The notes under the pieces are model-generated. The model was given only the letters and a program-made list of their open reading frames with translations. It had not been told where the DNA came from and searched no databases. A stretch of DNA of 23,969 bases from a virus: IMG/VR virus record IMGVR_UViG_3300006735_000256, positions 1 to 23,969 of that record; one strand, written 5' to 3'. Below, in pieces: positions 4,248-23,843 of this stretch (position 1 is its first letter; every line of letters begins with the position of its first letter). The position numbers and the translations under genes are program-made.

Positions 4248-5648
4248 GTGCAAGCAATTTCCCTTGAAGCCATTGAAGAAATAGATTTTGAAGTAGCGAA
4301 GCGCGACTTCAAATTCTTCTTTGAGCAGATATTAGGGTTTCAACTTTCACATCATCACGAAAGATGGTACAACAACTTAGAACAACGCAAAAGATACTGT
4401 GTTAAGGCAGCGCGTGACCATGGTAAGTCAACTCTATTCCTTGGCTACATGCTATGGAAGACAGCATTCAACCCTAAGACAAAAGCCGTACTAATTTCAC
4501 ACAGTCTACATCAGTCTATACATCACATGCGCACGCTTAATGATTTGATTGATGGTGTACCGTTTCTTGCTAAAATGAAAAAAGCCGATTCATGGTCTAA
4601 AACATTTTTTGGTTTTGCTAACGGTTCTAACATTAGCGCGAAGTCTGTTGGCGGTGCTATTCGTGGTATACACCCCGACCTTATTCTATGCGACGACATT
4701 CTGTGGGGAACAACTGACACAGAACTTGCTCGCGTCGCTTCATGGTTTTACGAAGTTCTTGTCCCGACACTCCACCACACATCGAAACTAATGATAGTCG
4801 GGACACCGTTCACTCCAACTGACCTTTACACAGAACTTGAAAGTCGTGACGGTTATCTTGTTGAAACATACCCTGCTATCAATGCGCGGGGAGTTGCGCT
4901 ATGGCCGGAGAGGTGGGATTTAGAATCACTAGATGCGCGTCGTGCTGATATGCCTGCGATTGCATTCGCTAGAGAATATCTTTGCGAACCAATGGACGAT
5001 GTGTCTAGTTTATTCCCTTCGACAGTATTACAAGCCGCTAAAGACAACTCTCTTAAATTAATTAATCGCGAAACAGGTGACCCGGACGACCAATACTTTA
5101 TCGGTTGGGACCCTGCTATTTCTAGCGACCGAGCGGCTGACTACACTGTTATGGTTGTACTTCGTCGCCCATCAACTAATCCCGAACTGCTTGAATTAGT
5201 TCATGCAGTTCGTCGTAAAAATATGGATTTCCGCACGCAAATTATGGAAATTCAAAAACTCAATGCCAAGTTTAGTCCCGATGTTATCGAACTTGAAGCC
5301 AACAATTTTCAGCGCGTCTTCGCTACTGAACTACGCGCAGACACAGACCTTCCTATCAAGACATTTATTTCCACACGCCAACGCCGTGAGTCACTTCTTA
5401 TGGGTTTGGTGTTGCGCTTTGAGAACGAGCAAATACGATTACCATGGGGCGACGACCGTTCACGAACAATGATTAGTGAATTAGAGCGCGAACTGATGAT
5501 GTTTGGTATGTCGAAAAAAGGTAAGTTAGACAGCATTGGTCGTCACGATGACTTTGCTATTGCTCTTGCCTTGGCTCATTGGGCCACAACGGAGTTCCGT
5601 GAGCGAATTGTTGACTTAGATGAAATAATGGAGGGGTTGTTAGATTGA
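4248..5648 (+). CDS. terL: Terminase large subunit (ATPase and nuclease)
   Basis: This is the packaging motor that hydrolyses ATP to drive DNA through the portal and cuts the concatemer. The 466-residue length fits the family. The N-terminal ATPase half shows a Walker A-like loop at 56-62 (RDHGKST), a Walker B at 145-150 (LILCDD) and a coupling motif near 182-190 (MIVGTPFTP). The C-terminal RNase H-like nuclease half shows the expected acidic residues: D288 in GWDPA, E348/E350 in VIELEAN, and D434/D435 in GRHDDFA. The start is GTG, set by AGGTGAT at 4238-4244. The TGA stop overlaps the next gene's TTG. Its place before the portal, protease and capsid genes is the usual head-module order. I am confident in the assignment; which packaging mode (cos or headful) cannot be told. 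Confidence 0.95.
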   Translation: MQAISLEAIEEIDFEVAKRDFKFFFEQILGFQLSHHHERWYNNLEQRKRYCVKAARDHGKSTLFLGYMLWKTAFNPKTKAVLISHSLHQSIHHMRTLNDLIDGVPFLAKMKKADSWSKTFFGFANGSNISAKSVGGAIRGIHPDLILCDDILWGTTDTELARVASWFYEVLVPTLHHTSKLMIVGTPFTPTDLYTELESRDGYLVETYPAINARGVALWPERWDLESLDARRADMPAIAFAREYLCEPMDDVSSLFPSTVLQAAKDNSLKLINRETGDPDDQYFIGWDPAISSDRAADYTVMVVLRRPSTNPELLELVHAVRRKNMDFRTQIMEIQKLNAKFSPDVIELEANNFQRVFATELRADTDLPIKTFISTRQRRESLLMGLVLRFENEQIRLPWGDDRSRTMISELERELMMFGMSKKGKLDSIGRHDDFAIALALAHWATTEFRERIVDLDEIMEGLLD

Positions 5649-7732: not shown

Positions 7733-7849
7733 ATGGATGAGTATTGCGGGTGGTGTTACGCGACAGACAACCCGCAACCATTTGGATTTTGTAAAAAATG
7801 TTGGATTAAAGCAGGCAAACCGGAGGCGATGATAGTTGACAATAATTAA
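7733..7849 (+). CDS. Single zinc-ribbon miniprotein, 38 aa
   Basis: A 38-residue frame starts at ATG 7733, one base after the previous stop, and ends at TAA 7847-7849, overlapping the next gene's TTG start. It contains just one zinc ribbon: C5-x2-C8 and C20-x2-C23 with aromatic residues between, and a short polar tail. The perfect C4 pattern and tight packing argue that it is real despite its size. Partner and role are unknown. Confidence 0.7.
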   Translation: MDEYCGWCYATDNPQPFGFCKKCWIKAGKPEAMIVDNN

Positions 7850-9236
7850 TTTATTAGACATAGAATCTATGTTACTTTCACACCCTCTAATTAAAAATTC
7901 AATACAAGGCGCTAGTTTTGGTGACGCCCCTAAACCTGTTTCACAAGGACAGGGTGAGGCTAACGCAAATCCTGTGCCTGCCAAACCTAATGAAATAGAA
8001 GAAAAGAAAAAAGAAGAAGAAATGGCTATGAAAGTCAAACAGCAACTTGTCGCTAAAATGCCCGATGGTGGTTGGTTTCAATCTATGTTTGGACGAGGTG
8101 CTGAATCTTTAGTCAAAGACTTGAGAATGGCTAGACGCGAACATAAAAGTATGAAAGACGCTATTGATGAAGCAATTTACGCTATTCGTATCGCTAAGAA
8201 GCAAGAAGTTGATGCGACTTTGTCTTCATTAGAATGGATTGGTAAGCATGAATTAACTGTCAAATCTTTAGGTATTAGCGACCGTGATTTACAAGCACTT
8301 CGTAAGCATGGTCAAAACCGTGAGTATGCTCTTCGTCGCGCTTGCGTTCAATGGGAAAAGGCCAATGATGTCATCAGCAAATTATTATTGATTAACGGAG
8401 ATTTCAATAACGACCAAAGACAACTATGGGTAGATGCGCAACAGTTGAAGAAAAATGCTAAAAAAGAATGGAAAGGCGCGCTTCATTCAGTCGATAACAT
8501 TAAAAAAACCGAAGCGATATGGTTGACTAAAGCAGTAAATGTGTTAGAAGATAGAGGTCCATTACCTGCTAAAGAAATATTTAATGGCATGAATGGGGTT
8601 AAACAGTTAACTACACAAAAATTAGCAACGCTGATGAAAATGCATGGCGTTGAATATAATATAGAAAAAGTGGGTACCGGTTGGGGTCTTGTCCGTGACG
8701 ATACTGTTATTTTCAAAGATGTATGGGCTTACGCCGCAGGGTTCTTAGACGCTGATGGTTATATCACTATTACAAAGAGGCTTGAGCCAAGAGCAGGTTT
8801 TATCGCTACCGGTGAACGAGGGAAGATGCATTGTGAGCAATTACACAAAGCACTTGGTTGTGGTGTGCTTCAAACTGATTTGAAGATACACAAGAATAGT
8901 AGACGAACACAACATAGATTACAGTTTTATAGTGAAGACCATTTAAGAAAATTGATGAAAGGCATCCGACCGCATCTTCGCATGAAGAAAGGGCAAGCGG
9001 GTGCTGTAATTGAGTTACTTGATTTGCGCGGTCGTAAAACCGACATTATCAAGTCAAGGCGAGATGAGTTGTTTCGTATCGTTAAATGGTTGAATTGGAA
9101 AGATGTGCCGGACAAGCGCGAAGAGTTGTTGAAGGAGTGGAACATTGATGAAGCGGGAGTTCTAGCAATGTTTAGTCGGGACGGCGAAACCCTGCGTCTA
9201 GTTGACGACGCCAACCGACTTGTGGAGATGATGTAA
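7836..9236 (+). CDS. 466-aa protein with LAGLIDADG homing-endonuclease-like domain
   Basis: The start is TTG 7836 with GGAGG at 7822-7826. Residues 1-80 are a Pro/Glu/Lys-rich arm. About 90-230 is a long helical, Arg/Lys/Glu-rich region. About 235-290 looks like a winged helix (LPAKEIFNGM ... LATLMKMHGV ... GWGLV). Residues 300-308 read AAGFLDADG, a close match to the LAGLIDADG helix, followed by the beta-rich pattern DGYITITKR, a central basic stretch and EDHLRKLMKGIRPHL, as in the monomer fold of LAGLIDADG endonucleases. D305 or D307 could be the metal ligand. There is no sign of an intron or intein around it. It lies between terminase and portal, where HNH nucleases often sit in phages, so it may help cut DNA during packaging or may be a domesticated DNA binder. 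The endonuclease-like fold is fairly sure; activity is not. Confidence 0.8.
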   Translation: MTIINLLDIESMLLSHPLIKNSIQGASFGDAPKPVSQGQGEANANPVPAKPNEIEEKKKEEEMAMKVKQQLVAKMPDGGWFQSMFGRGAESLVKDLRMARREHKSMKDAIDEAIYAIRIAKKQEVDATLSSLEWIGKHELTVKSLGISDRDLQALRKHGQNREYALRRACVQWEKANDVISKLLLINGDFNNDQRQLWVDAQQLKKNAKKEWKGALHSVDNIKKTEAIWLTKAVNVLEDRGPLPAKEIFNGMNGVKQLTTQKLATLMKMHGVEYNIEKVGTGWGLVRDDTVIFKDVWAYAAGFLDADGYITITKRLEPRAGFIATGERGKMHCEQLHKALGCGVLQTDLKIHKNSRRTQHRLQFYSEDHLRKLMKGIRPHLRMKKGQAGAVIELLDLRGRKTDIIKSRRDELFRIVKWLNWKDVPDKREELLKEWNIDEAGVLAMFSRDGETLRLVDDANRLVEMM

Positions 9237-11077
9237 TGGCAGAAGAAAAAGGATTGGTCGGTCGATTTTTATCAACATTGACTAGCCCATTCCGTAGAAG
9301 AACAACCCCCGAACCTATAATGCCGCTTTGGAAGAGCGGTATTCAAGAACCTGTATTAGTACAAGGTGTGTCTATACCTGCTTTGTACGCTACGGTTCAA
9401 GAATCTATAATACTGAGAACGACTATCAATACTTTATGTCAAGAGATATTTAGACGCGGTTATTATTGGGAGAAAAAGTTTCACAAGAAGTGTAATAATT
9501 GCGGTGAAGAATATCAACACGATACTGTTGACAATTGCCGTATATGCGGTAACGAAGACTTTGATAGCCCCGATGCTGACCAAATTATATATCCGCGTTG
9601 GTTGATGAAACAACGCAACAGTATGGACCAATCTTTCATAGAAGTAATGAAAGAGATAGAATGGGATTTAGATATTGTAGATGATGCTTTCTTATTACTT
9701 ATTAAAGAATATTTTATCGACCCCGATAGTGGTGAAATAGAATTTTTCCGTATCAAAGAATTAGTCCGCGGTGACCCGACATTTATGCGTATTGTAGCAG
9801 ACAAAGCGGGTAAGCGCGGAGGTAGGTATTTGCTATGTCCTGTTCATCGCGACAAGACATACCCTCACAACGGCGACCATAAAAAATGCGATGTATGTTC
9901 ACTACCTCTACAAGATGTTCAATACATTAACACAGCGGGGAGTGGTAAGACGCAATACTATCTTGACGGTGAGGTGTTACACTTGTCTAAGTTTAATCCG
10001 TCTAAGTTGTACGGGCGTTCTCCTGTCGCTAGTATGTGGAGGCAAGCGCAATCACTTACAGCAATGGATAATTACATTTATCTTGCGTATCAAAAGAGAA
10101 GAATACCTAGAGGTATATTAGCAATCACTACCGATAACATTCAATCAACTGCTTCATTTTGGAAAGGCGCAGAAGAAAAGATGGAGCGCGACCCACATTA
10201 TATACCAAAAGTCGGCGTTGAGTCAGCATCGGGTCGTGGTAAAGTTGAGTTTGTTCGTTTCATGGACAGTCTTGATGAGATGCAATACGCACAAGTTCGC
10301 GACGAAATCCGAATGCGTATAGCGGCATTCTACGGCGTTTCTAATGTGTTTATGATGGATGCCGGTAAATCCGGCGGTCTTAACAATGAAGGTATGCAAA
10401 TTCTTGTCACAAACCGAGCAGTTGAATCCGGTCAAAAATTATACTCGCGAGAACTATTCCCAAGAATGCTTGAGCAAATGGGAGTTGAAGATTGGACTTT
10501 GACTCTTTATCCGAATGAGGAAGAAGATGAAATAACACGACTTAGACGCGATGAGCAAGAAGTTAACATCGCACAGCGTATGCAACAACTTGGTTTCCAA
10601 CCGGAGTTGACCGAAGACGCAGGCCGTGATATACGCTTTGTCTACAAAAAACCCGACCCGCAAGAAGTTATGCAACAACAACAAGGCGGCGCGGCGGGTG
10701 GAATGCCTCCGGGTGGCGGAATGCCTCCGGGTGGCGGAATGCCTCCACCAATGCCACCGGGGGGCGGTGGCATACCTCCACAGGGCGGGGGCGCGATGAT
10801 GCCACCGGGGGCAGGGGCTTCTCCTCCGGGCGGAGCGCCCCCTCCGGGCGGTGGTCAAATCATGATGATGGAGAAAGGCGGTATGGTCGGTCTTGGTGAA
10901 GGAACAGGGCAACGCGATAACGGACCTGCTCCTATTAGTTCCGAAACTCATCAATCCGGCGCACCTTCTTCCAAGAAGAATCAACGCGGAAGTGAAAAAA
11001 CTCCATTAGAGCAAGCACTCGATAGCGTTCAAGCCGCGAAAGACCCTACAAGTAAAAATAAAGAAAGTGGTTTTTAG
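9236..11077 (+). CDS. Portal protein with two zinc-ribbon insertions
   Basis: Forms the dodecameric ring at one capsid vertex through which DNA enters and leaves. Family features are the N-terminal PLWKSGIQEPV and EIFRRGYYWEKK segment, the stem-region pattern HLSKFNPSKLYGRSPVASMW (near 249-268), then IRMRIAAFYGVSNVFM and the NRAVESGQKLYSRELFPRML helix. The portal is interrupted by two C4-type zinc ribbons: C86-x2-C89 with C101-x2-C104, and C201-x2-H204 with C218-x2-C221. The C-terminus (about 480-550) is a Gly/Pro/Met low-complexity tail, then a polar end. The ATG overlaps the previous stop (TAATG). The 613-residue length is at the long end because of these additions. The portal call is strong from motifs and its place between terminase and protease/capsid; the zinc sites are direct readings of the Cys pattern. 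Confidence 0.9.
   Translation: MAEEKGLVGRFLSTLTSPFRRRTTPEPIMPLWKSGIQEPVLVQGVSIPALYATVQESIILRTTINTLCQEIFRRGYYWEKKFHKKCNNCGEEYQHDTVDNCRICGNEDFDSPDADQIIYPRWLMKQRNSMDQSFIEVMKEIEWDLDIVDDAFLLLIKEYFIDPDSGEIEFFRIKELVRGDPTFMRIVADKAGKRGGRYLLCPVHRDKTYPHNGDHKKCDVCSLPLQDVQYINTAGSGKTQYYLDGEVLHLSKFNPSKLYGRSPVASMWRQAQSLTAMDNYIYLAYQKRRIPRGILAITTDNIQSTASFWKGAEEKMERDPHYIPKVGVESASGRGKVEFVRFMDSLDEMQYAQVRDEIRMRIAAFYGVSNVFMMDAGKSGGLNNEGMQILVTNRAVESGQKLYSRELFPRMLEQMGVEDWTLTLYPNEEEDEITRLRRDEQEVNIAQRMQQLGFQPELTEDAGRDIRFVYKKPDPQEVMQQQQGGAAGGMPPGGGMPPGGGMPPPMPPGGGGIPPQGGGAMMPPGAGASPPGGAPPPGGGQIMMMEKGGMVGLGEGTGQRDNGPAPISSETHQSGAPSSKKNQRGSEKTPLEQALDSVQAAKDPTSKNKESGF
10700..10746 (+). repeat. Tandem 18-base repeat in the portal tail
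   Basis: An 18-base unit encoding GMPPGG is present 2.6 times without mismatch (10700-10717, 10718-10735, 10736-10746). It lies in a Gly/Pro/Met-rich segment from about 10680 to 10860 that is much richer in G and C than its neighbours. The perfect copies point to recent slippage or expansion. Confidence 0.9.
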
Positions 11078-12167: not shown

Positions 12168-15100
12168 GTGCGTGACAATGACATTCGGTACCACGATAGA
12201 GTAGTCAAAGACTTCGTACGCGCTTTGTTTGCTAAGCAAGATTGTAAAAACGAAGCCACGGATGTTTTGTTTAGCGCGCTTAATTTATCTCGTAAAAACT
12301 ACACATACGCGCCTTTAGTAAAAGAGGCGCAGAAAATTATTGAAAGTTTGCCTTACAAAGATGAGGCGAAAATTATTACTTCAAAAGACACAAGTTTTGA
12401 GCCTTCTAAAAAAAGACATCACAAGGGTCTACCTATTTTTCACATGGAGGATTGGGATAAAGCAGTTGAAGACGGTAACCTAAAAGCGTTAGATACTATG
12501 GTTAGGCGTAAAGCCGGTTGGCGATACCAAACCATTCCTAACATTGATGATTACAGTCAAGATGAGATAAGAACAAAGCATCACAAAATACACGCGTTAG
12601 GTCTACACCCTAACTATAATGACGAGATAGGTTCCTACTCTTCGCAACCTTTGTTTCATAAAATGATAAGACATTTGTATAAAAATAACGGAGCGCAGGC
12701 CAAAAAGTTAGATAAAGAAATGAAGAATGTTGCTAAAAATTTGCACTCTTCATTGAAAGCAGACCACTTGCTTACTAATTGGAACGGTGATGCGGTTAAT
12801 CTACAATCAATTTATCAAATGGGGTTCAACGATTTCAAAAAAGATTATGCTGAGAAGTTCCCTCTAGTTGATGATGATGATTTGAACCCATATTTTCTTT
12901 GGTGTAAGAAATGGGAACATGAAGGTATACCTAGAGAGTATTTGTTTAGAAGCGCGTTTGATGAAAACGGTGCGCCTAAAACGCAAATAGCCGACGAACT
13001 TCATCAAATAGTAAAAGACAATCTTAGCATTCAATTGGACGATGGTTCATTTATCTCACCGGACATGGAGAGAATAGGCACAGACGCGTACAGATACGGT
13101 ATATACATGTTACCGAATGATAAAATTAGAGAAGTCGAAAAGTGGATGATAGAAGGTGCTGATGACAAAGAGTTAAATGCAATATTTCCCGATATAAGAA
13201 AGGGCTTAGACATGAGAGGTTTCATGGCTCATCACACTAGATTAATGAACGGTGCTTTGAGAAACGCTTACTCAAGTCCATCTTTAAAAAATTCATTTAG
13301 TCATCGAACCGCTAATCGTTATTTAAATGACAGCGGCGAGGCTGAAATGTTAACTAATAGAAGTCAAAGGAAAAAATTAGAGTTAGAGGGAAAAATGCGC
13401 AACGGTAAAGGTTTTGACCAATTAGACCCTTCGACATACGCATCTTTATTCGACAGTTTAGACATTAATGGACTGATAGACAACACAGGGATGTTTGTTA
13501 CAGGTGAGGGTAAGTACCCTCATTATGCCGAAGATATTTTTGGCGACCCGGAAATAGAAATGACTGATGAACCGCCTAACATGAAGTCTTTAATTCAAAA
13601 CGGTTTTTTTGAAAATAATAAAGAAACCTTAGATGATATTATCAATCGTTCTAGCAACACTGTAATTGAAAACGCTCTTACAGGGTTGAAAATGTCAACT
13701 CTTGATGATTACGCTTTTACTCACAAATTTTCGGATGATTGGATAGATTCTAAAGACGCTAAACCTGCTTTGACTGCTCAAGGAATTCTAAGTCAATCGC
13801 TAGGCACACATGGTGGTTTAGATGGAGATTTCGATGACCTTCCGCAGTTAAGAGAAGAATCATTCCCTCAAGTATACTTTAGTAGTATGCCCGATGTTAA
13901 AATGTTACCAATTTTTAGAGGAATGAGAGATAAATTTAAAGGCGGCGCGAGAAGAAAAAATGTGTATGAAAAAACAGGTGACAAAATCATAGACGCGCAA
14001 ACAAGAGATGATTTAGACAGGGCTTTAACAAACTCACCGGACAAAGAAGAAAAATTAAGCGAGTTTGATTCAATAATTTTCAACCCCGAAAATGATAGAG
14101 CAAACAGCGTTTCTATACCGATTGATACAGTCAACAACCCGGCAGGTCAAACTACACAAGCCTTAGCGAGAATGAATACTTCTTACGGGGAGATGGTCGA
14201 TAAAAATCCTCAACCAAGGTCTACATCTTTGAAATCATTGTATTCTTTCTTTGGTCATGAAACTACATACTTACCAAGCGATTATGAAGAAGATATAGGG
14301 GTTCTAGGTATGGATGGATTACCCGACGAGATAGATAAAATATCATCACTCCCAATGACACAGATTAGTCAGTTGAGAAATAGAGCAAATGACAACGGGC
14401 ATGACAAATTATTTCTCGCAGAACAGTTACACACAGGTGAACTGAACCATACTACTCATGATAAAAATAAAGCAGAAGATAGATTGTTGATACCGTTGGG
14501 GCTTTTTGGCGCGCATACAGGAATTCACGGTGAAAAAAATGAAAAAGCAATTGAGAACTTTAAACGAGGTAATATTCATCACGACCACCATGTCGACCCT
14601 TTAGGTCAAGACCGTGATGGTAAAAATGTAATCCACGAATTGACCGGCAATGATATGTCTACACCTAGTGGTAACGCTATCTACAACAGCGAAGACTATT
14701 CTCAATATCGCCAAAAGTCTAAAAATTTATTAGGCGATTATTCTATACCTAAACCTCTAGTTAAAAATTTATCTACCCGTAGACAACTGTTGACTGAGGT
14801 ACAAAGACTAGACGAAGAGTATCAAAATCTTGATGATGAAGAACTTGAATTAGAATGGACTCAAAAAATGGCTAAAAAAATAAAAGATGGTGAACCGATT
14901 AATGGAACTAGCATTCACGGCACGCCTTATACTATTGGTCCATCTCGCGCATCTTTGCATCTTACTGATAAGAATGATATATTAAATCAAATGAGAGAAA
15001 CAAGAGATGAGTCTAAAAAAGATATGTTAAGAGCGAGATTAGCGCAAATAAATAATCAAGACATCGAAAGACCAATGCTTTCCGAGCGAGAACATGCTGA

Positions 15101-18026
15101 TAGAAAAATAAAACACGCGCATCAAACTCATGGTGTAACTCAAAAAATATTCAATGCTTTGAAACCTGCTCTTGAAAGATTACACCCCGGTTTGTTTGGT
15201 AAAGATGGCATGTCGGATGCGGAAAATAACCAAGCGTACATCGCTACTGGTTATTTAGCCCATGTCGCTGAACACATAGCATTAAATTTCTCACCGGATG
15301 AAATCTACAATTTGTTGAACGGCGACGCTTATCATGGATTTGATAGTGACACTAAAATAAATGAACACTTATCCGAAGAGGATATTACAGGATTAACAAA
15401 CATGACAGTTCCAAGAGAAAGACGCATGAACGCTGACGGGTTTTTAAAAATCAAAGAAGGCCACTTTGACAATAAACAAACTCAAGGTCATAAATTGTTT
15501 TCTAAATTAGCCGAAGGTATAACAGGGAAACCAATTCAAAATCAATCTCAAATTCAAATTTTCAATACAATAATTGACCAAGTAGAGAAAGCCGCGCAAA
15601 ACCAAGGGATAAGTTTTGAAGATGCTTTTATGGCAAGATACGCGCCTAGTCAAAAGACCGATAAAAAGCGACAATTAAATAGACCGACTCTCACTACTGA
15701 CAAAAGAAGATTAACAGACGACAAAAGATTTGTTGATAGTTATGCTCAATATATGAACGACAATTCTCTTGTCGAAAGTAGTTTACCTAGCAACAGAAAA
15801 GGCTCTTCTTATGTTCATAACCAAGGAGGTATACACTCTTTCCACGACCATTTGTTAAATGGGGGAGGTAATGTCGAGGATGAAGATGGCAATACATTGA
15901 GTTTGAATCAAGAAAGCCAAGTCATTTACAATATGTTATTACACGCTATGGAACAAACAAAGTATGGTAGCGATGTTGGTTTCTTAGGTAGAAGCGTTAA
16001 ACAAGGCGTAAATATGAAAAAACGAAGCACTATATTCCCAACAGGTTCTAGTAAAGATAGAAATAAAATGCAATCTTTAAGAAACTTAGCGCACATTTTA
16101 AACGACGAAACTTCACCTATTGCGGGGACTGTTGAAGTAAAACCCGACGAAGTGCCTGTCCGTGGTAATTCACTAGACGGTGCTAAATTACCTCCTGTAT
16201 ACACATCTAAGTTGCATAAATACGAACACGGTTATAATTGTAAACTTCCTATAAATATCAATATGGATGCGTTAAGAGATGGTGTTATGTTTACTGAAAC
16301 TGAGAAGCACAATCAATCTTCACCAAGTAATAAAAGAATGAATTTATTTTTACCGGAGAACGCTATGTATAGTTTGAATCCTAATCTAAGACCTTACAAC
16401 CCTGCCGCTTCTAACCACATCAATTATCAAACTTGGAGTCCTTCTATGGAAAGCAACCCTAACACTACATCCGGCAGACTCGCGGAAGGTGCAGGTAGTT
16501 TACAAGATAGCACTTTACTCACATCACTTGACAAGGTCATAGATGATAGTTTACTCTACAAAGAAGATGGTAAACCTCGACCTGTCAAATTTATGCATAG
16601 AATCTTTGACTTAGAAGACATGCAACATCTGCGCGGTTTTACCGGTGATTGGGTAATCAGTCTTTATCCTCAAGGTGAGCATGTTATCGCGACTAAGAAA
16701 GGTAAAAAATTAACAGCATATAATGATGAAGGTGAAGTTAAACTAAATAAAACATTGATAGAAGAAGTTGGTAGAGTGTATGAGAAGGACTTTGTAGTTC
16801 ACGCTATTCTACACGACGACATGATGACAGTCGTTGATTTATTGAAGACTGCCGATGAAGACACTCATAACATGCCAACTAAAGACCGAATCCGTCATCT
16901 TCGCGCCCAATACGAATCTAGTGAGCATATCAAATTACCCGAACCAATCAACACAAAGCGTAGCGATGATGAAGGGTTAAAAGTTGCCATAGAGGGTCTT
17001 CGTAAAGAGGGTAATCAAGATATTCTCCTTAGAGATGCTAACGCTACTTACATGAAAGGAGAGCCGCGACATCCTAAGTGGGTGTTGTTAAGTAAAGAAA
17101 AAATGGTAGATGTTATCGTTTTATCGCGTAGCGGCAAAGGTTGTACGATAGGGGTCGGTCCACTCATGAACCCGGAAAATTATGGCAAACGCGCTCAACA
17201 GTTAGGCGACGAGCATTACATGAATGTCGGTAGTGCTAAATGCGGGAGAGGTATCAAGGTCGGTGATTACATAACAGTATCTTGTACAGGAGTCAGTGCG
17301 TCTAAAAATGAACACCCTGTGTATAGAATAAGGTCAGCCAAGGCAACTGAAAACGAACCATTAGCCGCAGATAGCGTTGAAACTTTGTCTATTCTATCCG
17401 GTGACCACCATGTTGCTCAAAGCGTAAAGATGTCTAAAGGCAACATAGTAATTACATTCGCCGCGTTTGATGATGAAGTTATTTGTAAGACAAAAAAAGA
17501 AGGAGATTATTGGGTAGTAGAACCTCAATCGACTGTGTGGGGTAACGATTATCTTGTTAAATTAGCGCGTGACCAAGAAGCGTATTGGGAAACTTCCGCA
17601 GCAGTTCTTCTGTATAAAAAGAAAGATAGAGAAGACCCCGAATACGATGAAGTTGACCCCGAAGCACCTGCGGGGCATACTAAAAAACCTAAGAAAGTGC
17701 TTGAAGAAGAAGAAGAATTAATCAAAAGAGGGCTTGAACTACTTGAGCGCGGATTAGATAACTTGTCTAAAGAAAAAATTACTAGCACAGGAGTGCAAGG
17801 ATTAGGTATAGGATATGCGAGTCTTGACAGTTCTCCAAAGGGGCCTACTGAAAATATCCGCGACGATACTATGCCCGACTTCGACCCGCAAAACAGGCGC
17901 GACGATGAAATAAAACCTGCAACTTCAAAGAAAAAGAGTAGACTGCGAACAAGTCAAGGGGAAACTGCAACGCTAGAAGACGAAGGTGTCGTAGCGGTTG
18001 AGAACAGTTCCATTGATATACCATGA
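12168..18026 (+). CDS. Giant 1,952-aa protein with C-terminal degenerate DNA ligase-like domain
   Basis: The start is GTG 12168 with GAGGTGA at 12155-12161. Residues 1 to about 1460 match nothing I know. They are polar, rich in Asp, Asn, His and Lys, without membrane segments and with very few Cys. From about 1470 to 1740 the layout follows ATP-dependent DNA ligases: a beta-rich adenylation core, a PTKDRIRHL helix, a motif IV/V-like stretch, and an OB-fold-like domain beginning near MVDVIVLSRSGKG at 1646. The motif I region reads TGDW (1492-1495) where ligases have KxDG, motif IV reads DILLR (1618-1622), and motif V lacks its lysines (KWVLLS, W1638). The domain is therefore probably inactive. 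A Glu-rich helical segment (near 1850) and a disordered tail follow. The gene sits between portal and protease in the head module, overlaps the protease by 4 bases and is about a quarter of this window, so a virion-internal or minor capsid protein is likely. That the fold is ligase-like is inference from pattern, not proof. Confidence 0.85.
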   Translation: MRDNDIRYHDRVVKDFVRALFAKQDCKNEATDVLFSALNLSRKNYTYAPLVKEAQKIIESLPYKDEAKIITSKDTSFEPSKKRHHKGLPIFHMEDWDKAVEDGNLKALDTMVRRKAGWRYQTIPNIDDYSQDEIRTKHHKIHALGLHPNYNDEIGSYSSQPLFHKMIRHLYKNNGAQAKKLDKEMKNVAKNLHSSLKADHLLTNWNGDAVNLQSIYQMGFNDFKKDYAEKFPLVDDDDLNPYFLWCKKWEHEGIPREYLFRSAFDENGAPKTQIADELHQIVKDNLSIQLDDGSFISPDMERIGTDAYRYGIYMLPNDKIREVEKWMIEGADDKELNAIFPDIRKGLDMRGFMAHHTRLMNGALRNAYSSPSLKNSFSHRTANRYLNDSGEAEMLTNRSQRKKLELEGKMRNGKGFDQLDPSTYASLFDSLDINGLIDNTGMFVTGEGKYPHYAEDIFGDPEIEMTDEPPNMKSLIQNGFFENNKETLDDIINRSSNTVIENALTGLKMSTLDDYAFTHKFSDDWIDSKDAKPALTAQGILSQSLGTHGGLDGDFDDLPQLREESFPQVYFSSMPDVKMLPIFRGMRDKFKGGARRKNVYEKTGDKIIDAQTRDDLDRALTNSPDKEEKLSEFDSIIFNPENDRANSVSIPIDTVNNPAGQTTQALARMNTSYGEMVDKNPQPRSTSLKSLYSFFGHETTYLPSDYEEDIGVLGMDGLPDEIDKISSLPMTQISQLRNRANDNGHDKLFLAEQLHTGELNHTTHDKNKAEDRLLIPLGLFGAHTGIHGEKNEKAIENFKRGNIHHDHHVDPLGQDRDGKNVIHELTGNDMSTPSGNAIYNSEDYSQYRQKSKNLLGDYSIPKPLVKNLSTRRQLLTEVQRLDEEYQNLDDEELELEWTQKMAKKIKDGEPINGTSIHGTPYTIGPSRASLHLTDKNDILNQMRETRDESKKDMLRARLAQINNQDIERPMLSEREHADRKIKHAHQTHGVTQKIFNALKPALERLHPGLFGKDGMSDAENNQAYIATGYLAHVAEHIALNFSPDEIYNLLNGDAYHGFDSDTKINEHLSEEDITGLTNMTVPRERRMNADGFLKIKEGHFDNKQTQGHKLFSKLAEGITGKPIQNQSQIQIFNTIIDQVEKAAQNQGISFEDAFMARYAPSQKTDKKRQLNRPTLTTDKRRLTDDKRFVDSYAQYMNDNSLVESSLPSNRKGSSYVHNQGGIHSFHDHLLNGGGNVEDEDGNTLSLNQESQVIYNMLLHAMEQTKYGSDVGFLGRSVKQGVNMKKRSTIFPTGSSKDRNKMQSLRNLAHILNDETSPIAGTVEVKPDEVPVRGNSLDGAKLPPVYTSKLHKYEHGYNCKLPININMDALRDGVMFTETEKHNQSSPSNKRMNLFLPENAMYSLNPNLRPYNPAASNHINYQTWSPSMESNPNTTSGRLAEGAGSLQDSTLLTSLDKVIDDSLLYKEDGKPRPVKFMHRIFDLEDMQHLRGFTGDWVISLYPQGEHVIATKKGKKLTAYNDEGEVKLNKTLIEEVGRVYEKDFVVHAILHDDMMTVVDLLKTADEDTHNMPTKDRIRHLRAQYESSEHIKLPEPINTKRSDDEGLKVAIEGLRKEGNQDILLRDANATYMKGEPRHPKWVLLSKEKMVDVIVLSRSGKGCTIGVGPLMNPENYGKRAQQLGDEHYMNVGSAKCGRGIKVGDYITVSCTGVSASKNEHPVYRIRSAKATENEPLAADSVETLSILSGDHHVAQSVKMSKGNIVITFAAFDDEVICKTKKEGDYWVVEPQSTVWGNDYLVKLARDQEAYWETSAAVLLYKKKDREDPEYDEVDPEAPAGHTKKPKKVLEEEEELIKRGLELLERGLDNLSKEKITSTGVQGLGIGYASLDSSPKGPTENIRDDTMPDFDPQNRRDDEIKPATSKKKSRLRTSQGETATLEDEGVVAVENSSIDIP

Positions 18027-19477
18027 AATACTGTCGCGCTGTAATGGCTATTCTTGCGGCACCTAGTGCTTCGTCAAACCCTGTCATTTTGAAGGGTATT
18101 GGTGATGACCTAATTGTAGCAGGTTACGCATCAGTTGAGATGGTCGATAAGCAAGGTGATTTAATCACTCGCGGTGCTTTGAAAGATGCGTTTGGTAACT
18201 TTATGAAAGCAGATGGTTTTCGTAATGTTCAACTAGCACACTCTAATATTCAAGTAGGAAGTGTCATTCCTTCCTACACTGATTCAAGCGGTCGATTGTG
18301 GAAGTCCGAAGTAGACGACACAGGAATGTTCGTAGTCATTAAACTGCGCGGAGATATTGAAAAAGCCCGCGAAGTTGCATCCGAAATCCGTAAGGGAAGC
18401 CTGCGGTCATTCTCAATAGGCGGTCAAGCCTTTGAGCGTGTCAACAAAAGCGACCAAACTCGCGGTGATTACCGTGAAATTCGTCGCATGGAACTCCATG
18501 AGGTCACTATTTGTGAGAAGGGTATTAACCCCGAAGCGCAGTTTAGGATTCTCAAGGAAGACAAAGGTGATACTATGACGAACCCAATGAGCGAACTGCA
18601 AAGCGTACTTGAAAGGTTATCTAAGAAATTAGATAAAGAAGAGGACGACGACAAAAAGAAGAAGAAAGACAAAGAAGAGAAGGAAGCCGGAGATTTGGGT
18701 GGATTAGACCCGGATAACGACGGCAGACCCGGACCTTTCGGTAACGACGACGACGACGACGACGATGCGCCTAAACCAAAAAAGAAAACTCAACCCGAAG
18801 ATGATGAAGATGATGAGGGGTTGGAAGAAATGATGTATGGAGAAGATGACATGACAAACAAAGCAGATGATATGATAACGACAGATTACTTGACTTGGTT
18901 AGAGTCTACCGTGAAAAGCGCAGGGTTTGACCCAAACGCGGCTCGCGACCACTTTAACAAAGGCTATGGACCGGGCGAAAGTGCTTTCGACATGAGAGGA
19001 CAAGGTTCTCTTGAAGGAGCAGGCGAAGATGATTCCGGTAAAAGACCGCAACCTAACTTTGGTTCCGCTCCAAGTGGAAACAAGAATGTTATCAAAGGTG
19101 ATTATTTGAATCATGGTAATGTTTCTTCATCCGAAGTTGAAGCAGCGTACGAGATTTTCAAAGCCGCAGCAGAAGAACAACAATTCAAGGCTGACCTTAA
19201 CAACCAATTTACTGACAGATTCTTGAAAGAGCAAAAGTTTGAAGCGGATTCAATAGCAAAGCAACAATTTGATGCTCGCGCACCACTTGTTGAATTGCAG
19301 AAAGCAGTTCTAGCACTTAACGGTAGAATAGACAATGTATCAACAGAATCTACTCTAATCTCTAAGTCCGCTGATACTACTAGCGTAACTATTCCCGAAA
19401 CTACTGAGTTAGCATCAATGTCGTGGGACGATGTCCACCGACTTGCTAATAAAGCGTTGACAGGAGGCGATTATTAA
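18023..19477 (+). CDS. Prohead protease with fused scaffold
   Basis: The N-terminal 180 residues are a prohead serine protease of the HK97/XkdF kind: VAGYASVEMVDKQGDLI (32-48), LAHS with H73 as candidate catalytic His, GSLRSFSIGG (125-134) with the candidate Ser, and MELHEVTICEKGINPEA (156-172). A long Asp/Glu/Lys-rich linker follows (about 200-275), then a helical C-terminal half that ends in MSWDDVHRLANKA. This is the fusion of protease and scaffold seen in many tailed viruses; the protease cleaves scaffold and capsid protein during maturation. The TAA overlaps the capsid ATG. The ATG at 18023 lacks a clear ribosome site; ATG 18044 is an alternative. An internal start at 18575 would make the scaffold separately. 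Confidence 0.9.
   Translation: MKYCRAVMAILAAPSASSNPVILKGIGDDLIVAGYASVEMVDKQGDLITRGALKDAFGNFMKADGFRNVQLAHSNIQVGSVIPSYTDSSGRLWKSEVDDTGMFVVIKLRGDIEKAREVASEIRKGSLRSFSIGGQAFERVNKSDQTRGDYREIRRMELHEVTICEKGINPEAQFRILKEDKGDTMTNPMSELQSVLERLSKKLDKEEDDDKKKKKDKEEKEAGDLGGLDPDNDGRPGPFGNDDDDDDDAPKPKKKTQPEDDEDDEGLEEMMYGEDDMTNKADDMITTDYLTWLESTVKSAGFDPNAARDHFNKGYGPGESAFDMRGQGSLEGAGEDDSGKRPQPNFGSAPSGNKNVIKGDYLNHGNVSSSEVEAAYEIFKAAAEEQQFKADLNNQFTDRFLKEQKFEADSIAKQQFDARAPLVELQKAVLALNGRIDNVSTESTLISKSADTTSVTIPETTELASMSWDDVHRLANKALTGGDY
18565..18571 (+). promoter_or_regulatory. Internal Shine-Dalgarno site inside the protease gene
   Basis: AGGTGAT, fully complementary to the 16S 3' end region, sits 3 bases before an in-frame ATG at 18575. 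Motif and spacing match the terminase start exactly. It lies at the boundary between the protease domain and the scaffold part. Confidence 0.6.
18575..19477 (+). CDS. Nested in-frame scaffold protein, 300 aa (internal start)
   Basis: The same frame as the protease gene can start again at ATG 18575 (residue 185), directly after the last protease motif. The product would be a free scaffold: a coiled-coil start (SELQSVLERLSKKL), the Asp/Glu-rich linker, and a helical Glu/Ala/Gln-rich region with a probable capsid-binding end (SWDDVHRLAN). Nested protease/scaffold genes are well known, for example lambda C/Nu3. The strong site AGGTGAT at the domain boundary is the evidence; whether both products are made is not shown by the sequence. 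Confidence 0.55.
   Translation: MTNPMSELQSVLERLSKKLDKEEDDDKKKKKDKEEKEAGDLGGLDPDNDGRPGPFGNDDDDDDDAPKPKKKTQPEDDEDDEGLEEMMYGEDDMTNKADDMITTDYLTWLESTVKSAGFDPNAARDHFNKGYGPGESAFDMRGQGSLEGAGEDDSGKRPQPNFGSAPSGNKNVIKGDYLNHGNVSSSEVEAAYEIFKAAAEEQQFKADLNNQFTDRFLKEQKFEADSIAKQQFDARAPLVELQKAVLALNGRIDNVSTESTLISKSADTTSVTIPETTELASMSWDDVHRLANKALTGGDY
18744..18766 (+). repeat. GAC triplet repeat encoding a poly-Asp run
   Basis: Uninterrupted GAC/GAT codons encode seven Asp in a row in the scaffold linker. The simple repeat may vary in length between strains by slippage. Confidence 0.85.
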
Positions 19478-20616
19478 TGGCAAGAAATTATGTAAGAACA
19501 GTACAAGACATGGAAAGATACTACTACGGCGGAGCATCCTCAACAGGGTACACCTACGGCTCCGGTGACATACTAAAGGCAGACGCGCCTCTAATGTCCT
19601 CGACAGCAGGTACATATCAAGCAATTTACGGCAGAAAAGTATGGTCACAATTGAACCAAGAGTTCAATGCCTTTTCTATACTACCTAAGAAACCATGGGA
19701 AAGAAGCGGTTGGAGAATTCTAACTTCGCGTGCTGACTTCACAAAGGGTGGAGGAATTGCAGAAAACGGAACTCTACCGGACACAAGCCGACCGGAGTTC
19801 TTGCATGTAGCAGCAAAGCCAAAGACTGTGGCTCACACCTTTGACCTGTCCGAAGTTAGCATGTTCCTATCCGACAAAGATGATGGAATGGGCGATGTTC
19901 GACAAGTTCTAAAAGAAGAAATGGGTAAGCATCACGCTGAACACATTAACAGAATGCTTCTTGAAGATGTAGACACACCTGTTGGTAACGACTTTGAATC
20001 TCTTGACAGACTGGTTTCCGACCCGGACAAGATGACCACAGGTACAGGCCATGTAAGCGCAACTACTGACCACGACATTTATTCTATTACCCGCGACGGA
20101 ACAGCAGATTTCCACAGCGCAGAAGTAGATGTTGCCGCGGCTAACAGAAACCTATCTCTAAATCAAATGGACGGATTGTTTCAACAACTTTGGACCCGTG
20201 GTGGTAACCCGAAGGTTATCCTAACTGGTTACGACACTCTAATGAGAGTTCAACAACTTCTACAATCCCAACAAAGGTTCATGGACAGTAAGAGAATTAC
20301 TCCAACTTACAACGGTGTAAAGGGTGTTCCGGGTCTTGAAGCAGGATTTATCGTTGCTACATACAACGGTGTCCCAATCATCCCAACCAAAGACATGCCT
20401 CAAGATGGTGCAAATTCACTATCTCGTATGTACTACCTTGACACAGATTACCTATGGTTCCAAACTGCTATCCCAACACAGTATTATGAGTCCGGTATTG
20501 AAACCGGCGACCCATTCGCGATTAACCGTCTTGGACAAGAGGGGCTTTACAGAACTATGGGAGAACTATGGTGTTCTTTCTTTGGTGCTAGTGGTAGCAT
20601 TCGTGATTTACAATGA
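19477..20616 (+). CDS. Major capsid protein, HK97 fold
   Basis: Main shell protein, 379 residues. It has the usual pattern of the family: a polar N-arm (MARNYVRTVQDMERYYYGG), an early helix region near VWSQLNQEFNAFSILPKKPW, a Gly-rich E-loop (GGGIAENGTLPDT), a long spine-like helix region (DDGMGDVRQVLKEEMGKHHAEHINRMLL), the central P/A-domain strand pattern with NPKVILTGYDTLMRVQQLL, and the end segment QTAIPTQYYESGIETGDPFAINRLG. It starts with ATG 19477 overlapping the protease/scaffold stop, with GGAGG at 19463-19467. It lacks a long N-terminal scaffold arm, consistent with a separate scaffold next door. The call rests on pattern and context; the context is very strong. Confidence 0.92.
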   Translation: MARNYVRTVQDMERYYYGGASSTGYTYGSGDILKADAPLMSSTAGTYQAIYGRKVWSQLNQEFNAFSILPKKPWERSGWRILTSRADFTKGGGIAENGTLPDTSRPEFLHVAAKPKTVAHTFDLSEVSMFLSDKDDGMGDVRQVLKEEMGKHHAEHINRMLLEDVDTPVGNDFESLDRLVSDPDKMTTGTGHVSATTDHDIYSITRDGTADFHSAEVDVAAANRNLSLNQMDGLFQQLWTRGGNPKVILTGYDTLMRVQQLLQSQQRFMDSKRITPTYNGVKGVPGLEAGFIVATYNGVPIIPTKDMPQDGANSLSRMYYLDTDYLWFQTAIPTQYYESGIETGDPFAINRLGQEGLYRTMGELWCSFFGASGSIRDLQ

Positions 20617-21984: not shown

Positions 21985-22251
21985 ATGGATATAGAAACAC
22001 TCCGCCGCCTTGAGAAGCAAGGTTGGAAGCAAGCAGAAGAGTCGATGGTCAAGACCGACGAGCAGGACAAGTTGAAAGGTGTTATCAAGCGTCAAAACAT
22101 TAAGACGCGTAACATCCGAGATATTGTCAACATCGGTCAAGGTACCCGTTGCAGACATTGCGGTATGCTTCATTTCTGTTATCTTGAGCGTTGCGGTGCT
22201 TGTAAGAAGCCTATGGATTACAATCTCGGTAAGACCGAAGAGGTCGTCTAA
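21985..22251 (+). CDS. Zinc-ribbon protein, 88 aa
   Basis: I prefer ATG 21985, which has GGGTGAG just upstream, over ATG 21970, which overlaps the previous stop but lacks a ribosome site. Residues 1-50 are a charged helix. C56-x2-C59 and C70-x2-C73 form a zinc ribbon, with an extra Cys at 65. The stop overlaps the next ATG (TAATG). This is another zinc-ribbon protein in the head module. Role unknown. Confidence 0.75.
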   Translation: MDIETLRRLEKQGWKQAEESMVKTDEQDKLKGVIKRQNIKTRNIRDIVNIGQGTRCRHCGMLHFCYLERCGACKKPMDYNLGKTEEVV

Positions 22252-23843
22252 TGCCGACAGTATTTCAAACAGGAGAGCGAGAGGGTAGACCTCTATTCCC
22301 CGATAGGCTTTACTACACATCCGCGCAAAAGGTAGCAGACATTCTGCAAATTCCTTTACCCGACCCTGTCCCTATGTATCAAAACAACTCAAACACGCAT
22401 GTTTTCATATCAGCGAGGGATTACCGATTAGTCGGTTTTGAAGTGGGGGACACAATTGAACTTACTTCGGACAACGAATTTCCTCATGAATGTGTAATAG
22501 CCTCAATAGCCGTCGCCACTTCCGGTAGCAATAAATTTGTCGGGTTAGAAATGTCTCCCGGCACAAGTAATACATTTGATATAACAGAAAACGCGGAAGT
22601 TCAAAGTCTTCAATCATTCACTAATGGTAAGCGTAAGGGTGTCACAAAGAAACAGGTTGAAACACTCATCCTAAGAACGCAAGACAAGATAGACAACTTG
22701 ACAAACAATTCTTGGCGACCTATGTTGCAGACTGCTGAATATCTTAACTTTGATACTTACAAACCATACCGTCGCAGATACTATACAGATTATGTTGGTT
22801 CTGTTCCTTTGATGTTTCGCAATGCTCAACAAATACTAAGACTTGAAATATGGCAGGGTGCTGATTATCGCGAAATAGCCGCGGCTGAAATACGATTGAA
22901 AGTTGATGACTTCACACAACTAACTGCTGATACCGATAAAGTATTCTTATGTCCGGGCGGTGGTGGCGTAGCAACATTGACTGTTGGTAATGGGTCTTCT
23001 AAGTTCCGCGCGCAATTTGACAATGTAAGCACAGCACAGCAATTATCCGACCTTATTAACAAAGACTTACGAAAAGGCAAAGCCGCAACAGAATTCAGTC
23101 CATCATTCATATTAGAAGATGCGACAGAAACAGACGGAACAATAACAGCAAATGTGCATCATGAGTTTATGGCATCGGCTAATGCAGATTATGGCGGCGG
23201 TCAAGTAAAAATTACTTCTATGCGTCGCGGTGAAGCGGGTGAAAATTCAACTTATGCTTGCACATCTTCCGGCATCACATTCTCCGGCGCAACAGATGTG
23301 TCAACCACAGTTCAATCCTCAACATCCTCAACTATCACCGTCGCTGATGTGACAGGGCTTGTGCCTTTCGGCATCATCAACATAGGTAGCGCATACGGTT
23401 ATTACACTAGCATTACAGGAACAACACTCAACGGAGTTGTAGACCTCGTAGGTGATATTAGCGCGGCGGCAACCAACGGCGCGACACTTCTTCAAAAGAA
23501 ATTCAAGATTGATTATGTCGGAACAACCACAGGCGACGAGGCTCGTCTTCGCGATTGGTGGGCCGACTACGATATGGGTGTTATTTATTTTAACAACTCA
23601 TACCCCTACTTCTCATGGAACGCAGTCAAGGTATCGTATGTCTATGGTGAGCGGTATGTCGAAAAAGCAATTGAAGATATATGCACCAAATTGGTCGCGA
23701 TGGATTTGATACTGTCCGACGACCGAAGCGTGCTACTACCCGAAGGAACACAGAATGTGGACTTGGGTAGCAAGTATCAATTATTCAAAGCGCAGGTTGC
23801 GGAGACGCTACCGCGCTACACAGAAGTAATGACGGTGTTGTGA
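22251..23843 (+). CDS. Probable head-tail connector (adaptor) with a beta-domain insertion
   Basis: 530 residues. The N-terminal region ends in a helical segment typical of adaptor proteins (VTKKQVETLILRTQDKIDNL, 131-150, then NNSW). The C-terminal 72 residues (VKVSYVYGERYVEKAIEDIC, then KLVAMDLIL) match the other half of an HK97 gp6-like adaptor, in which a VxVxYxYG strand precedes a long helix. Between them lies about 300 residues of beta-rich sequence, including TITVADVTGLVPFGIINIG and YYTSITGTTLNGV, a beta-domain pattern often found in tail-associated phage proteins. The position after the capsid genes fits. I infer a connector ring on the portal carrying an inserted external domain; a baseplate or neck protein is the alternative. 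Confidence 0.75.
   Translation: MPTVFQTGEREGRPLFPDRLYYTSAQKVADILQIPLPDPVPMYQNNSNTHVFISARDYRLVGFEVGDTIELTSDNEFPHECVIASIAVATSGSNKFVGLEMSPGTSNTFDITENAEVQSLQSFTNGKRKGVTKKQVETLILRTQDKIDNLTNNSWRPMLQTAEYLNFDTYKPYRRRYYTDYVGSVPLMFRNAQQILRLEIWQGADYREIAAAEIRLKVDDFTQLTADTDKVFLCPGGGGVATLTVGNGSSKFRAQFDNVSTAQQLSDLINKDLRKGKAATEFSPSFILEDATETDGTITANVHHEFMASANADYGGGQVKITSMRRGEAGENSTYACTSSGITFSGATDVSTTVQSSTSSTITVADVTGLVPFGIINIGSAYGYYTSITGTTLNGVVDLVGDISAAATNGATLLQKKFKIDYVGTTTGDEARLRDWWADYDMGVIYFNNSYPYFSWNAVKVSYVYGERYVEKAIEDICTKLVAMDLILSDDRSVLLPEGTQNVDLGSKYQLFKAQVAETLPRYTEVMTVL

Follow-up and report, generated by a model that had tools for sequence, protein, structure and literature searches.

Ligases have been described in viruses of archaea as replication enzymes. 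The International Committee on Taxonomy of Viruses profiles of Apasviridae and Aoguangviridae place an ATP-dependent DNA ligase among the replication proteins (PMC12999244, PMC10768690), and almost all magrovirus units are said, in the accessible part of one paper, to encode this enzyme (PMC10160649). In a group A magrovirus, one read spans parts of the DNA ligase gene and of the prohead protease gene, according to the accessible part of PMC7318539. Lost catalysis or a giant head-module gene is not mentioned in the accessible parts of these four texts. The DNA analysed here (the window) is the whole 23,969-nucleotide stretch at positions 1 to 23,969 of IMG/VR virus record IMGVR_UViG_3300006735_000256. 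It encodes a giant protein of 1952 amino acids (aa), which carries a ligase-like part near its C-terminal end. Sequence comparison and a predicted structure indicate, with high confidence, that this part has the core-plus-OB fold of an archaeal-type ATP-dependent DNA ligase and has lost the catalytic residues. By the same evidence, it is a widespread, strongly conserved pseudo-ligase. The gene and the two domains are as follows.

12168 to 18026, plus strand: gene of the giant 1952-aa protein, GTG start, single open frame with its stop at 18026, pseudo-ligase near the C-terminal end.
16542 to 17102, plus strand: adenylation-core-like domain, residues 1459-1645 (AlphaFold (AF2) model, PDB matches, Pfam matches in relatives).
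17103 to 17387, plus strand: OB-fold-like domain, residues 1646-1740 (VIA alignment to 2cfm; positions 1-290 of the model are residues 1459-1748).

The AlphaFold model of residues 1459-1818 has a mean predicted local distance difference test (pLDDT) score of 83.7 and a predicted template modelling score of 0.74. When this model is compared by VIA with the Pyrococcus ligase 2cfm, 269 residues are aligned with a Z-score of 21.0 and a root-mean-square deviation of 3.6 Å, core and OB fold jointly. In many further VIA matches, the core is aligned alone at 2.4-2.9 Å. The 50 PDB matches listed by Foldseek are 46 named DNA ligases and four chains of non-homologous end joining ligation or synaptic complexes, with a best E-value of 7.8e-14. 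In a comparison with predicted structures of viral proteins, an unnamed 827-residue protein ranks first (E 2.9e-24), followed by named DNA ligases, further proteins without a name and capping enzymes. The predicted fold agrees with the covalent nucleotidyltransferase fold, with a ligase core plus OB. A first-pass annotation had proposed, by eye, a degenerate ligase core at 16580-17400 with an OB-like domain starting near residue 1646. This layout is upheld: a nucleotidyltransferase core is predicted, DNA ligases are the best structural matches, the proposed interval fits residues 1459-1740 (16542-17387), and the model strand 188-197 corresponds to residues 1646-1655.

The fold is also recognized in sequence profiles of the relatives. 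Of 33 aligned members, 22 have a match to the Pfam domain DNA_ligase_A_M (PF01068) at E ≤0.1 (best 2.3e-8). When a profile of 33 diverse members (A2) is compared with the PDB at E up to 10, ten matches are obtained. Archaeal DNA ligases account for six of them (4eq5 best at E 0.0011; remainder 0.016-0.29), and the other four are human DNA ligase 3, an isomerase and two chains of snurportin-1. Alignment by hhalign with 23 archaeal ligases (of 26, three under 450 aa being left out) gives a score of 36.4 and a probability of 84.5, as compared with scores of 26.1 or less in 20 column shuffles. A single-sequence search puts two DNA ligases on top (E 0.35 and 0.46). The alignments used comprise 33 of 42 references (A2), 24 of 43 (A3), 27 of 28 (A4) and 13 of 15 (A5).

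The catalytic motifs were compared in 87 non-redundant members, obtained from 250 locus ids, many from one contig, by removing near-duplicates at 95%; one relative (L181) was left out as too short. The scans kept the best 80 of 137, 387 and 426 relatives, and most of the distant relatives fall outside the counts. The motif I sequence EIKYDGAR of a real ligase sits, by hhalign, on SLYPQGEH of the window. The relevant segments, all placed by hhalign, are as follows.

16641 to 16652, plus strand: TGDW, residues 1492-1495, conserved stretch before motif I.
16659 to 16682, plus strand: SLYPQGEH, residues 1498-1505, motif I equivalent, with Tyr1500 at the place of the nucleophilic Lys.
17016 to 17036, plus strand: QDILLRD, residues 1617-1623, motif IV equivalent, with Arg1622 in place of the ligase Lys.
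17067 to 17093, plus strand: RHPKWVLLS, residues 1634-1642, motif V equivalent, with Leu1640 and Ser1642 at the lysine places.

TGDW had been read as motif I in the first-pass annotation. This candidate is rejected, because hhalign shows TGDW to be the strand before motif I. The remaining motif claims of that annotation hold, namely that the active site is degenerate, that motif IV has DILLR and that motif V lacks its lysines, so that it saw a real, unusual feature with one motif misplaced. The real ligases of alignment A5 carry E248, K250, D252, G253, R255, E300, E399, K404, K421 and K423 without exception. In the 87 members, the motif I Lys place is occupied by M in 30, Y in 22, W in 22, I in six, F in four, and L, S and a gap in one each; the nucleophilic Lys is absent in all 86 aligned members. 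The motif III Glu place, a column set by eye using the strands of the model, is I in 62, V in 20, L and F in two each and a gap in one. At motif IV, Lys is replaced by Arg in 87 of 87, and the Glu place is Glu in five and a gap in 41. The first Lys of motif V is lost throughout (L 55, M 30, V 2), and the second is retained in 15 members and is Ser in the window. The scan was repeated with patterns outside motif I, because one early scan used RGFTGDW as a pattern. The 49 members found solely with such patterns have no motif I Lys either (48 aligned, one gap). The Lys of RHPKW is present in all 87 members, and R, K and W of this stretch are each present in 38 of the 38 members from scans without the RHPKW pattern. 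The invariant residues form clusters ahead of motif I (MHR, RGF, GDW) and at the former motifs IV-V (R, D, Y, GE, R, PKW). Judged by its residues, the domain fails as an active DNA ligase at four catalytic motifs (I, III, IV and V).

The loss of these residues is not accompanied by decay. Positions conserved in at least 90% of the window and 54 long relatives number 61 of 390 in the pseudo-ligase part; the counts are 5 of 1440 for the N-terminal part and 13 of 122 for the tail (residues 1831-1952), so that the pseudo-ligase part is the best-conserved region of the giant protein. The ratio of nonsynonymous to synonymous substitution rates (dN/dS) of the pseudo-ligase is 0.02-0.09 in ten pairs (three sequences being used twice). 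That of the N-terminal part is 0.11-0.26 in eight of the same pairs and is saturated in two. A chance open reading frame or a decaying pseudogene is ruled out, since no stop is found inside the match in the 17 of 17 loci checked and dN/dS is far below 1. Strong selection, as estimated from these sequences, fits re-use and not decay: catalytic residues are lost while the sequence is nearly unchanged, and therefore the domain is probably re-used for another job.

The genes on either side of the giant gene suggest the setting of this job.

4248 to 5648, plus strand: terminase large subunit (Pfam/PHROGs scan).
9236 to 11077, plus strand: portal protein (Pfam/PHROGs scan).
18023 to 19477, plus strand: S78-type prohead protease, whose ATG overlaps the stop of the giant gene.
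19477 to 20616, plus strand: major capsid protein (Pfam/PHROGs scan).

The giant gene thus has the portal on its upstream side and the S78 protease and major capsid protein downstream, in keeping with the head gene cluster noticed at first pass. This order is maintained in the relatives. The protease frame starts at -58 to +36 bases from the end of the giant gene in 86 of 87 loci; the locus of L048, which is cut off, is the exception. The capsid gene lies 1.4-1.7 kb past this end in 81 of 87, and the other six loci end within 1.62 kb. The portal is upstream in all 29 loci with more than 3.4 kb of upstream sequence. Complete stop-to-stop giant frames (n = 45, non-redundant relatives) have 1683-2404 codons; in one relative (L013, 3735-10085), a giant frame of 2117 codons extends beyond the usual end. 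In tblastn searches of 50,697 phage records, neither the whole protein (E up to 0.01) nor the domain of relative L088 (E up to 1) matched anything. A scan of genome contigs with the motif III-OB alignment A3 gave 16 stretches and zero relatives.

The long relative records suggest which viruses these are. Family B polymerase (PolB) is found in 10 of 13 of them and the Cpn60 chaperonin in 12 of 13. PolB and chaperonin are marked in Marine Group II (MGII) viruses in the accessible part of PMC5332604. From these genes, we infer that the relatives are magroviruses, the viruses of Poseidoniales. The ten proteins of the window have no PolB or Cpn60 match in a general Pfam scan, no search of the 24-kb window having been directed at these two proteins. 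In one relative record (G015:C1:27584-28504), the PolB match holds eight in-frame stops, and in another (G004:C1:33582-34998), the Cpn60 match is divided between two frames.

A separate ligase was not found in 20 long relative records, some of which are perhaps fragments. PF01068 matches 12 of the 20, always within the giant frame by coordinates, and a separate live ligase elsewhere is rejected as the source of these matches. The real-ligase profile A5 matches two of the 20, both in the giant frame, and a control genome at 1.8e-278; an NAD ligase is found in none of 13 long records. PF01068 misses the giant gene itself in 8 of the 20 records, so that the negative result leaves room for a very diverged second ligase. 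Because no separate ligase was obtained from the 20 records, the viruses presumably rely on the host ligase. The ligase-protease order of the group A magrovirus matches the order here, and the published magrovirus DNA ligase, at least in such viruses, is therefore probably this dead domain. The titles and abstract starts listed in literature searches name no such pseudo-ligase, and the 2017 magrovirus and 2025 Poseidoniales virus papers might do so in their full texts.

The reading that we favour is that a core-plus-OB unit descended from an archaeal-type ATP-dependent DNA ligase would have lost its nucleophilic lysine, along with most of the other residues for adenylation, prior to the divergence of the sampled viruses. 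It would have survived as a binding module without catalysis, within a protein made alongside the prohead. That the pseudo-ligase is such a binding module of a head-assembly protein is probable, DNA as the ligand being left out of this judgement. The giant protein likewise probably resides in the head or on the portal, as suggested by gene order. The ligand itself is assigned tentatively. The two lobes may still close round a phosphate-bearing ligand, most simply a viral DNA end or nick; this step is conceivable, and somewhat unlikely when taken by itself. In such a mechanism, conserved basic residues near what were motifs IV and V would grip the ligand during packaging or delivery. The module itself would be positioned within the head or at the portal by the N-terminal 1440 residues, which are variable, and by the conserved tail. 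The case for DNA would draw on the retention of both lobes in the model, on these basic residues and on the precedent of yeast Dnl4, catalytic mutants of which are still recruited to DNA breaks, according to the accessible part of PMC3694833.

Several observations weigh against this reading, in its fold or in its ligand. The domain of the window has no Pfam ligase match, and the close-relative profile A1 has zero matches in the PDB; the assignment therefore depends on the relatives and on the predicted structure. The profile search suggested at first pass thus gives a divided answer, in that the family profile A2 matches archaeal ligases and A1 matches nothing. PF04679, the Pfam model for the OB domain of ligases, is found in 0 of 13 records, and the whole-model TM-scores of Foldseek, by query length, are low (0.37-0.51 in the 50 matches listed). 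The core carries a slight net negative charge (-4 in the window; median -8 and range -18 to +2 in the family), as compared with -2 to +17 in the 22 of 23 real ligases listed. The place of the nick-binding Arg, aligned by eye, is N, G, D, S or a gap in 62 of an earlier set of 63 members. In the same set, RFPR of motif VI is not retained, its first-Arg place being still Arg in 22, including the window. The conservation of RHPKW and RGFTGDW owes part to the search patterns. No ligase DNA-binding domain was detected upstream, where hhalign of six stretches against that domain of ligases scored 11.2-13.9; minimal ligases without an N-terminal DNA-binding domain are described in the accessible part of PMC4220977. 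Finally, residence in the virion is argued from gene order, and DNA as the ligand is inferred.

Some of these observations suit a purely protein-binding role. The pseudo-ligase may bind no nucleic acid and serve for protein-protein contacts or scaffolding, for example by docking to the protease, portal or capsid. This possibility is nearly as likely as DNA binding. The giant gene adjoins the protease gene in 86 of 87 loci, with a start/stop overlap in the window, the nick-binding Arg place is lost in a slightly acidic core, and the motif I lysine is replaced mainly by bulky aromatic or aliphatic residues. However, a scaffold need not keep invariant clusters before motif I and at motifs IV/V, although part of this clustering is pattern bias.

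It is unlikely that the former ATP pocket continues to bind, without chemistry, a nucleotide-like ligand or one with a cap or 5'-phosphate, as a sensor like snurportin. The cap-binding domain of snurportin is a catalytically dead member of the same capping-enzyme/ligase fold. This reading is a fair rival because its domain, PF21974, weakly matches 7 of 33 members (best E 0.0022). PF21974 also matches the full-length relative L180 at E 2.8e-5, with 24.7 bits, under the Pfam cut-off of 27, and the mRNA capping enzyme domain matches 6 of the 33. The snurportin and capping matches are, however, fewer and weaker than the ligase matches in the 33 members, and a ligand of this kind is not known to us from these viruses.

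It is quite improbable that the protein is delivered into the cell along with the viral DNA and that the pseudo-ligase acts as a decoy against the host DNA ligase or its clamp. The head-module position could permit ejection, and the host ligase is presumably used by viruses in whose 20 long records no separate one is found, but ejection is unsupported and damage to the host ligase is expected to hurt viral replication. An enzyme still active as a ligase or nucleotidyltransferase through a non-canonical nucleophile, the Lys of RHPKW or a Tyr/Ser, is the least credible alternative: this Lys is present in all 87 members and both lobes are predicted to be intact, but the seven residues that occur at the motif I place (M, Y, W, I, F, L and S) offer no common nucleophile, and the motif III Glu and first motif V Lys are lost throughout.

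The binding-module reading, joined to the proposed identity of the viruses, has a bold form, in which the magrovirus ligase is a pseudoenzyme, these marine viruses lack a ligase of their own, and the dead ligase on a head protein grips a DNA end or nick at the capsid. This combination is doubtful as a whole. If it is true, a ligase fold has been turned into a part for packaging or delivery, and one of the replication enzymes that the family descriptions list for a widespread order of archaeal viruses is no enzyme at all. Claims of nearly self-sufficient replication would then lose one part, the host ligase being a dependency.

The other parts of the giant protein are less readily assigned. In the model of residues 1-900 (pLDDT 68), residues 85-560 (12420-13847) are mostly ordered and mainly helical. 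At E 0.001, this model matches nothing in the PDB (95 matches up to E 10), and VIA gives no match with Z of at least 5, in a structure search that can miss single domains of so long a model. Because long models can hide single-domain matches, the missing match is no sign of a new fold. In the giant protein and four relatives, Pfam and PHROGs searches give nothing better than E 0.017 besides the ligase and snurportin matches. Two segments follow the OB fold.

17388 to 17618, plus strand: additional domain that follows the OB fold and is made of strands and two helices, residues 1741-1817 (AlphaFold model; hardly covered by PDB matches).
17688 to 17897, plus strand: conserved tail segment, residues 1841-1910, with GLG and SPxGPT (conservation count).

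The tail segment, with its GLG...SPxGPT motif, is a second conservation peak. Elsewhere in the window, a 466-aa frame (7836-9236) lies in the terminase-portal interval. It has a homing-endonuclease-like stretch at residues 297-400, with a PHROG HNH endonuclease match at E 3.6e-10 and a Pfam LAGLIDADG_3 match at no better than E 0.21. A 530-aa protein (22251-23843) has homologues 3' of the capsid gene in Druskaviridae (phmmer 1e-18, 2.4e-14; phrog_17057). Promoter and terminator scans gave values close to those of shuffled sequence.

Of the known systems, the haloarchaeal Druskaviridae contain, among phage records, the closest named relatives of the capsid and portal proteins (30-35% identity). 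In Druskaviridae (HVTV-1, HCTV-16), the major capsid protein, portal and protease are related to those of the window, and large proteins likewise lie in the portal-protease interval: a 1046-1048-aa unnamed protein, a Mu gpF-like/head assembly protein and a 1209-1313-aa 'zeta toxin' (L104, 6230-14564; L105, 6689-14857). These proteins show no sequence relation to the giant protein, and a giant gene common to both groups by sequence is rejected. The likeness to the m3G cap-binding domain of snurportin-1 (PF21974) consists in weak profile matches in some members; snurportin-1 itself is an import adaptor of eukaryotes whose ligand is a cap, and it has no place in a virus head module. With the archaeal ATP-dependent ligases of Pyrococcus (2cfm), Thermococcus (4eq5) and Archaeoglobus (3gde), the pseudo-ligase shares the predicted core plus OB over 267-269 residues at 14-16% identity, together with the motif IIIa Asp, the motif I Gly and the Tyr and Trp of motifs IV-V. 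Unlike them, it has no nucleophilic Lys or motif III Glu, its motifs IV, V and VI are altered, and it lies in a frame of 1683-2404 codons in which no DNA-binding domain is detected. With the magrovirus 'ATP-dependent DNA ligase', the shared feature is gene order: its gene and the prohead protease gene lie together in a group A magrovirus in the same order as here (PMC7318539, accessible part). The magrovirus texts, in their accessible parts, put the ligase among replication or DNA genes, whereas here it is part of a gene of the head module: if the reading is right, a case of a dead DNA ligase under strong selection, and perhaps of a role for the ligase fold without ligation.

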